Assembly: GCF_964340395.1 (NCBI RefSeq)
Contig: NC_135567.1
Location: 9,503,984-9,567,983 of the forward strand
DNA from: Glandiceps talaboti
Lineage: Eukaryota > Hemichordata > Enteropneusta > Spengelidae
DNA: 64,000 nucleotides
Reading direction: 5' to 3'
Position 1 is the first letter of the stretch. Every line of letters begins with the position of its first letter. Below, in pieces: positions 32,166 to 35,100 of the stretch. A program made the translations under genes and the position numbers. The notes beneath the pieces were generated by a model that made no database searches, was not told the origin of the DNA, and was given only the letters and a program-made list of their open reading frames with translations.

Positions 32166-35100
32166 GCAACGACAGCCGCCTTGTTGGTTTGCAGAATAAT
32201 CTTCATCAGAGCTGTAGAAATCACTATCTTTGATAGTTTTATGGATACTGCTAGCTCTGTTGGCCTGTAATTTTGAAGAAAGTTTGGAAATAAATTACCG
32301 CTAAAATTATGTAGACTAGTCATGTAACATGACATTTAATACACACCCTCAGACAACTTCTAATGCAAAATAAAAAATTACATAGGTGCTATGCACAGTG
32401 GGGATATAGAAGTTGAAATGAAATAGGAAGGCTCTGAATAACCTCACCTAATTCTGTCACCAGAGGGCATACTTCATAGGAAGGCTCTTAATAACCTCAC
32501 CTAATTCTGTCACCAGAGGGCATACTTCATAGGAAGGCTCTGTTATTGAAGTGTTAACTTACCCGTGTACTGTTTTTAGCCAGCATTTCCTTGGCTAGTA
32601 GGCTGTATGCATCATCGACATTGGTGTTAGTTTTGGCGCTGGTTTCTAAAAAATCCAGATCATAGCTTGTGGCGAGCTGAAATGGAGATAAATACAATTA
32701 ACATCCATACGGCTGAGAGCTACACTGGAACATTTTGGGCAACTTTTTAGTTCAATATAGTGACTTATATAGTGATATTTAATTTGGGTTTTTAATTTAT
32801 AAAACAATTTTATTATGGGGCATCCTACTTGAAAAATAGCGCCAATGGCGTTACAGCACAACTGTACGTTTTTTTGTTTATCTGGTTGCCTATCCAGCCC
32901 TATTGTTACTTTTACTATAATTAAGTGCCCTAATTTGGCTGTTGCTATGAGTATGGTCTTGTTGCTAGGCATATTTGCATACATTTTTTGAATGTTTATT
33001 CCCTTACATCATTTGGTTGTTGTTATGGGTGTGGTCTTGTTGCTAGGGATATTTGCATACATTTGGTTAATCTTTATTCACTTACCTACACATCTCTGTT
33101 GTTATCTTCGTAATGTGCATCCTCATTTGAATGTTGCTAAGGGCGTGGTCATGGTTGCTAGGACATTCAGTCAATATATTTTGAACACTATCTAACTGCA
33201 GAATAACACCCGACACATCCCCACCAAGTTTCAACCCCATGCACCATGTAGTTTTTAAGATGTAAAAAAAGTTGTGAATTCACCTTCATCTACACATCCC
33301 CAGGTGAATCCCATTAAATTTCAGCTCAATCTGCGGAGTAGTTTTGGAATTATAGATTTTTGAACAAACAGACACATATTTAGACTTAATTTGCATATCA
33401 CTGATGGGATCATGTTATGAACAATTCTTAATATAAGCACCCTAAGAACGTTCCAAACAAATTTCAGTCCAATCTGCTTTTTTTAAGTAGTTTTGGAATT
33501 AAGGATTTTTGACCAAAAATACACATTCTTATTCCTAATTTGCATATCACTGTTGGGATCATCATGTAATGAACAATTCTTAGTCTAAACACCGTATTTC
33601 AGACCGATCTGCCCAGTATTTTTTGTGTTTAAGTTTTTTGAACAAAAATCACATTTTTTGACCCGAATCACACCGTAGTTAAGGTCATTTTGATTTCGAC
33701 AATTTCCCAACTAGACAGCTAAGGTATATACCCACCAAATATCTGCTAACTTACCGTACTGGTGCTGTCTGTCTGTTAACTTACCATACTAGCCCTGTCT
33801 GTCTGTTAACTAACCGTACTAGCCCTGTCTGTCTGTTAACTAACCGTACTAGCCCTGTCTGTCTGCTAACTTACCATACTAGCCCTGTCTGTCTGTTAAC
33901 TTACCGTACTGGCCATGTCTGTCTGTTAACTTACCGTACTGGCCCTGTCTGTCTGTTAACTTACCGTACTGGCCATGTCTGTCTGTTAACTTACCGTACT
34001 GGCCATGTCTGTCTGTTAACTTACCGTACTGGCCCTGTCTGTCTGTTAACTTACCGTACTGGCCATGTCTGTCTGTTAACTTACCGTACTGGCCCTGTCT
34101 GTCTGTTAACTTACCGTACTGGCCCTGTCTGTCTGTTAACTTACCGTACTGGCCCTGTCTGTCTGTTAACTTACCGTACTGGCCCTGTCTGTCTGTTAAC
34201 TTACCGTACTGGCCATGTCTGTCTGTTAACTTACCGTACTGGCCATGTCTGTCTGTTAACTTACCATACTAGCCCTGTCTGTCTGTTAACTTACCGTACT
34301 GGCCCTGTCTGTCTGTTAACTTACCGTACTGGCCCTGTCTGTCTGTTAACTTACCGTACTGGCCATGTCTGTCTGTTAACTTACCGTACTGGCCATGTCT
34401 GTCTGTTAACTTACCATACTGGCCCTGTCTGTCTGTTAACTTACCGTACTAGCCCTGTCTGTCTGTTAACTTACCGTACTGGCCCTGTCTGTCTGTACTT
34501 CTCTGTTTACTTGTCTGTCAGACTTATTTCCTATAAGCACAATACTAACATCCTCTGATGCATTCTGGGAAAAATACAGAAAATCATGTCATTCAGACTC
34601 CACTGTCTAATAGTTTGTTGATTTTACTTAACTATTAACTATTTCACATTTACTTCAGCGAATCACTTTGTAGCTAGGAGTTCTGAACATTGATGGCAGT
34701 GTGGGCATGGAGGTCATGTAAGTCTTTTCACTATCACATCAAGCTGTAAATGTATACTCAAGCCAAGTTATTGTCTTTGAACAGAAAATATGGACTGTAT
34801 ACACTGGTCGTTCTACATCATGACAACTTCATGTCTCCATGACTGGTTTTGTGGTGCTACATCATGACAACCCGTGTCTACATCACTGGTTTTGAGGTGT
34901 TACATCATGACAACCTGTGTCTACATCACTGGTTTTGTGGTGTTACATCATGACAACCCGTGTCTACATCACTGGTTTTGTGGTTCTACATCATGACAAC
35001 CCATGTCTACATCACTGGTTTTGTGGTGCTACATCATGACAACCCGTGTCTACATCACTGGTTTTGTGGTGCTACATCATGACAACCCGTGTCTACATCA

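Follow-up and report, generated by a model that had tools for sequence, protein, structure and literature searches.

In amphioxus, tandem duplications that straddle exon-intron boundaries have been described as mirages, a name given to those of the Adh3 gene (original Adh paper, as cited: doi 10.1093/nar/gkf386). In passages of PMC3087553 and PMC3902484, mirages are also placed in the globin genes BflGb6 and BflGb9 and in TnC, together with similar duplications in PGBD5; regular splicing is said to be undisturbed by them, and length instability between alleles or cells is reported. For the two BflGb6 haplotypes 6 and 3 mirage units are given and for BflGb9 a duplicate; the authors of the globin paper suggested a role for mirages in intron gain and considered that they might be a general phenomenon in cephalochordates. 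The idea that introns are gained by tandem duplication of AG/GT segments is cited in PMC3087553. In human IFI6 (6-16), a minisatellite provides several donors (Turri et al. 1995, as cited in PMC4526556 and in the reference list of PMC2915984), two downstream repeat units being used as alternative donors to give three mRNAs (as summarised in PMC4526556).

A stretch of 64,000 nucleotides from the hemichordate Glandiceps talaboti (the window) was analysed, following an earlier note in which the end of a coding exon and its 5' splice site were described as amplified about 25-fold in a Rab gene, here Rab-A. The array (array A) is real and was correctly described; structures of this kind are already known as mirages, and the phylum is new. 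A search of open-licence literature gave no title reporting mirages in hemichordates. Positions of all features are collected in Table 1.

Rab-A and the array at the end of its fifth exon

The seven coding exons of Rab-A were joined in a single frame and the introns obey the GT-AG rule, except for intron 4, a GC-AG intron with the donor CAG/GCAAGT at 36205-36206 on the minus strand (slashes mark exon ends). The model was compared with a database protein (P0156, 'ras-related protein Rab-13-like isoform X2 [Glandiceps talaboti]', 159 aa). Residues 1-126 of this protein equal residues 66-191 of the model with zero differences, spanning the junction of exons 5 and 6, and its remaining 33 residues correspond to the last Rab-A exon. 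A relative from Ptychodera flava showed 77% identity to Rab-A over 90% of the query and, compared by eye, runs on with similar sequence through the array junction with zero extra residues. The P-loop encoded by exon 1 reads GDSDVGKT; the Asp, shared with the Ptychodera flava relative, stands at the position of Ras G13, where most Rabs carry Gly. At the other end of the gene, a short tandem duplication copies the C-terminal codons, the stop codon and the start of the 3' flank.

A decayed Rab-A, in which an array would be free to grow, is scarcely credible. The odd structure and the GC donor of intron 4 are all that speaks for decay, against a 224-aa frame intact over seven exons, a C-terminal cysteine motif, the database protein and the similar Ptychodera flava protein.

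Array A was detected by TRF as a 30-bp repeat of 25.2 copies at 33742-34496 (95% matches, score 1342). The unit table confirmed the unit given in the earlier note, namely the last 21 nt of Rab-A exon 5 followed by the first 9 nt of intron 5, as well as its copy number of about 25, there being 25 full units. Unit 1, at 34466-34495, is the real exon 5 end with its donor, in the context ACG/GTAAGTTAA at 34475 on the minus strand, and the units then follow down to 33746, which moves the array start of 33751 originally proposed by 5 bp. The unit thus straddles the exon-intron boundary, and the authentic exon is intact at the array edge, in frame with the other exons and with this edge present in the database protein. 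The array-bearing intron measures 1.8 kb.

Eight distinct unit types were found. Nine of the 25 units are identical, including the one linked to the exon, and the most diverged group is formed by the five exon-distal units, each 2 or 3 bases off the exon unit. The sequence GTAAGTTAA is present in 21/25 units. GTAAGT was found in 23 of the 25 and is replaced by GTTAGT in the other two (units 22 and 23). In eight of the 25 units a base is present that would change Arg to Met at one codon.

A 90-base probe consisting of three units was used to search the 590-Mb genome (47 contigs), with scoring limited to the best candidates and very common words skipped, and gave 11 matches, all inside array A. 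Capture of a dispersed satellite by exon 5 is therefore unsupported, the unit probe having matched array A only. Multiplication of the copies by misassembly has a precedent in this assembly, namely an apparent mitochondrial concatemer on contig C40, and is nevertheless extremely unlikely, considering that array A contains several unit types with the most diverged ones grouped at its distal end and that the other arrays described below differ in unit and in copy number.

Table 1. Features of the window, numbered from its first base, and spanned exon-domain ends elsewhere in the genome
Feature	Position	Strand	Description or evidence
Rab-A coding span	32163..41833	minus	joined exons give 224 aa and a stop; Pfam Ras 1.5e-59
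Rab-A exon 1	41833-41665	minus	
Rab-A exon 2	38966-38906	minus	
Rab-A exon 3	37068-37008	minus	
Rab-A exon 4	36284-36207	minus	GC donor
Rab-A exon 5	34475..34564	minus	90 nt, phase 0; GNKSD motif; donor ACG/GTAAGT
Array A	33746..34495	minus	25 full 30-bp units; TRF, unit table, U1 pairing
Rab-A exon 6	32563..32676	minus	ETSAK motif; acceptor partner of the array-bearing intron
Rab-A exon 7 (last coding)	32264-32163	minus	placed by P0156
75-bp x 2.7 tandem duplication	31998..32208	minus	starts within the last Rab-A coding exon; TRF, sequence
Rab-B exon with amplified donor	51323..51486	minus	WDTAGQE; Pfam Ras 2.2e-20
Rab-B 99-bp array (array B)	49353..51355	minus	TRF, unit comparison
87-bp x 2 tandem duplication across Rab-B acceptor	47906..48079	minus	TRF, sequence
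Rab-B exon with duplicated acceptor	47802-47927	minus	NKCD/ETSA; Pfam Ras 3.9e-9
L026, Rab donor			local copy, 80% identical
L081, myosin donor			copy 93% identical, 141 bp on
L078, myosin acceptor			local copy

Donor choice within array A

Predicted U1 pairing of 23 units lay at -9.3 or -9.1 kcal/mol and that of the other two at -5.4; the authentic donor scored -9.3. The donors, which had been called nearly equal, are so in 23 of 25 cases by this measure. The authentic donor has no clear strength advantage and predicted U1 pairing fails to single it out. With predicted pairing equal among the donors, the choice between them would have to depend on position. Translation that continues beyond the first donor meets Val-Ser-stop at once, and after any distal donor this stop precedes the ETSAK motif and the C-terminal CRC. 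The statement that an intact Rab is obtained from the exon-proximal donor only was thereby borne out, and it is the exon-proximal junction that is used in the database Rab-13-like protein model.

This arrangement would lend itself to a functional rheostat, in which a share of splicing uses distal donors, the resulting Val-Ser-stop transcripts are destroyed and copy number sets Rab-A output. Every distal donor would indeed cause an early stop, and 22 of the remaining 24 donors come close to the authentic one in strength by predicted U1 pairing. We nevertheless consider a rheostat very unlikely, and evidence that copy number tunes output was not found. Such arrays recur in other genes (see below), and regular splicing is described as undisturbed in the amphioxus cases, according to passages of PMC3087553 and PMC3902484. 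In addition, the donor 9-mer shows no constraint: it varies about as much as the remaining unit (6/225 versus 18/525 variable cells, Fisher p 0.66), in a comparison that, like the one for array B below, is not strong because the copies share descent.

Similar structures in Rab-B and in the genome

A second array (array B) was found in the neighbouring gene Rab-B, for which the gene model is incomplete, part of the exons having been placed. Its unit of about 99 bp comprises the Rab-B exon end and adjoining intron. The authentic donor (last exon base 51323) is followed by 20 more copies, and all 21 donors read AAG/GTAATG, each with the exon end. Variation was seen at 0/9 donor positions versus 16/48 of the positions compared (p 0.017 by positions; p 0.032 when three edge positions are left out), which hints weakly at constraint on the donors.

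Counting all periods, tandem arrays make up 25.6% of the window. Those with a period of at least 10 bp make up 22.9%, versus 4.4% of 60 sampled genome loci. Included in the window are a 49-bp x 84 array at 58117-62219 and a family of 78-bp arrays that recurs after about 32 kb (29143-30948 and 62620-62992). Further observations in the window concern a Gag-like ORF on the minus strand (3311-4456) with a CCHC motif recognised by eye, probably from a retroelement, and a single-exon BTB-Kelch protein on the plus strand (19246-20898), to which the 29 other proteins among the matches listed show 21-34% identity. Rfam gave zero matches on 30000-53000.

Outside the window, the flanks of the 70 best-scoring domain matches were scanned (Ras, 30 of 150; TCP1, 30 of 57; myosin, 10 of 78), part of these matches being whole domains in a single frame. 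Three of the 140 exon-domain ends were spanned by a local duplication (Table 1), versus 5.4% of 187,740 background positions in the sampled loci, so that enrichment of duplications at exon ends was absent from this sample (lower tail p 0.051). Self-matches near the ends at L023, L036, L054, L056, L059, L075, L076 and L079 were left uncounted, either because crossing of the end was not shown or because they were simple repeats. The L059 array (48-bp x 5, on contig C26) begins 4 bp past the Pfam-matched part of a TCP1 exon, lying beside it and not across its end.

Donor arrays were also sought directly, using a pattern that requires three copies of GGTAAGT separated by 18-48 bp, which gave 10,293 genome matches. 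Among the matches listed, eight distinct donor arrays were recognised, all within the first 5.05 Mb of contig C1, corresponding to about 1.6 per Mb if this region is typical. Judged by eye, an exon-like stretch, consisting of an acceptor and an open frame, adjoins four of these eight arrays (L086, L087, L088 and L090). L086 is the only one whose exon homology is confirmed by sequence comparison, namely with the LRRK2 ARM domain (Pfam 1.2e-5, below the curated cut-off; PDB 4.3e-8). The putative exon of L087 matched Pfam weakly, below the cut-off, and had zero PDB matches, that of L088 had zero Pfam and zero PDB matches and that of L090 zero Pfam matches; their candidate exon status is based solely on the acceptor and the open frame, and open frames of about 30 codons ahead of a donor are not rare by chance. 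The other four were left out of the mirage count: L084 and L085 are possibly very short exons, and L089 and L091 look by eye like GTAA-rich repeats that lack an exon.

With further cases in Rab-B, at domain ends and among the C1 arrays, the Rab-A array is not the single unusual case for which it had been taken. That the genome contains numerous arrays of this type has firmer support than Rab-A as a single case, and is of greater interest.

Arrays of this kind might arise or be retained preferentially at 5' splice sites, for instance if many U1 sites shield a long intron from premature polyadenylation or if structures formed during transcription promote slippage. Three control heptamers of the same composition as GGTAAGT were searched with the same pattern. 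Triple matches per single heptamer amounted to 10,293/87,264 (11.8%) for GGTAAGT versus 4,687/114,168 (4.1%) for TGAATGG, 2,177/44,735 (4.9%) for GGATAGT and 4,506/65,121 (6.9%) for TGATAGG, counts that are not independent, as one long array yields many matches. Distinct arrays were then counted by eye among the matches listed, which are located on C1 and the start of C2 only. There were 8 for GGTAAGT, 17 for TGAATGG and 12 for GGATAGT, or 10.7 versus 5.9 and 4.1 per 1000 heptamers (one-sided p 0.13 and 0.035, respectively; 0.054 pooled). When microsatellite-like arrays were removed on both sides, 6 donor arrays remained versus 12 and 12 for the controls (8.0 versus 4.2 and 4.1 per 1000 heptamers, p 0.12-0.15). 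GGTAAGT arrays are thus about 1.8-2.6 times commoner per heptamer than controls, a weak excess. As the GGTAAGT set includes real donors, mirages could produce such an excess without special targeting.

Preferential creation or retention at splice sites appears unlikely on these data. The higher frequency of both triple matches and distinct arrays fits it, as does the exon-like sequence seen by eye beside at least 4/8 donor arrays; set against this are the weakness of the excess at the level of arrays, the dependence of the match counts and the restricted region from which arrays were counted, and the fact that spanned exon-domain ends are rarer than background. The wider proposal that acorn-worm genomes hold hundreds of donor arrays whose formation or retention favours genuine 5' splice sites, extra U1-binding arrays in introns thus having become a common and perhaps useful part of gene structure, is doubtful to the same degree.

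Two other repeated elements were encountered in these searches. On contig C40, three COX1 copies lie exactly 15,435 bp apart in a mitochondrial concatemer that is probably an assembly artefact; this COX1 is read with TGA as Trp, and ATA as Ile fits conserved isoleucines. It is 93% identical to a cluster named for Glossobalanus marginatus and 88% to Saccoglossus kowalevskii; amphioxus, the host to be expected from the literature, was rejected on this COX1 and on the Glandiceps talaboti protein P0156. Many copies of a kinesin-motor exon (model positions 245-320), scoring equally or nearly so, are present on C22, C23, C9, C18, C2, C5, C12 and C15, often spaced about 1.8-2 kb apart.

Origin of array A and known systems

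Array A is most probably a mirage minisatellite, that is, a neutral tandem amplification seeded at a donor and tolerated because one complete exon-donor unit stays attached to the exon body. Its seed would have been a duplication of a segment straddling the 5' splice site of Rab-A exon 5, followed by expansion and homogenisation in place, through slippage, unequal exchange or conversion. The exon-linked copy would stay in the gene and supply the working donor, as the database protein suggests, while the other 24 copies would be intronic and normally removed with the intron. Given the equal predicted U1 pairing, the donor may be picked by its position, for example through exon definition and earlier transcription, and not by its strength. 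Array A probably has no function of its own and is one of many in the genome.

This mirage reading is supported by the anatomy of the array, the in-frame exon and junction, the read-through in Ptychodera flava and a probe that matched this locus only. It is also supported by the like structures in Rab-B, at 3/140 domain ends and, by eye, at 4/8 C1 arrays, by the tandem-array cover of the window and the 60 sampled loci, and by the amphioxus mirages, for which undisturbed regular splicing is reported. Three points count against it. The one indication that the proximal donor would be used is a database protein model; random seeding must invoke real donors among all GGTAAGT, or chance, to account for the weak excess of GGTAAGT arrays; and the invariant donor positions of array B are a weak hint of constraint.

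Mirage repeats are hereby extended from amphioxus to hemichordates, in which they may be common. Each array constitutes a natural experiment, in which 21 to 25 near-equal 5' splice sites follow one another and protein is obtained from the first only, and position effects in splicing should be readable straight from RNA at such arrays. Moreover, the coding exon end forms one of the minisatellite units, so that codons could be altered by conversion from array A, for instance by the Arg to Met base of 8/25 units.

As compared with intron gain by duplication of AG/GT segments, in the form cited in PMC3087553, array A likewise consists of a tandem duplication carrying splice signals, but it lies within an existing intron and a new intron is not evident. 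In IFI6, as described in the passages cited above, minisatellite units also provide several donors after one exon; alternative mRNAs are made there, whereas a downstream donor in array A would lead to a stop at once. Because of this in-frame stop after the first donor, a useful protein from downstream donors in the manner of IFI6 is unlikely. The closest likeness is to the amphioxus mirages as reported in the passages of PMC3087553 and PMC3902484: units cross the exon-intron boundary, one edge being formed by the real exon, donor as well as acceptor ends can be repeated and splice signals are kept in many copies. The reported host group, a matter of record and not of structure, is the cephalochordates, whereas Glandiceps talaboti belongs to the Hemichordata. 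Furthermore, 25 and 21 donors are found here versus the 6 and 3 units of the two BflGb6 haplotypes and the duplicate of BflGb9, and two neighbouring Rab genes are affected.
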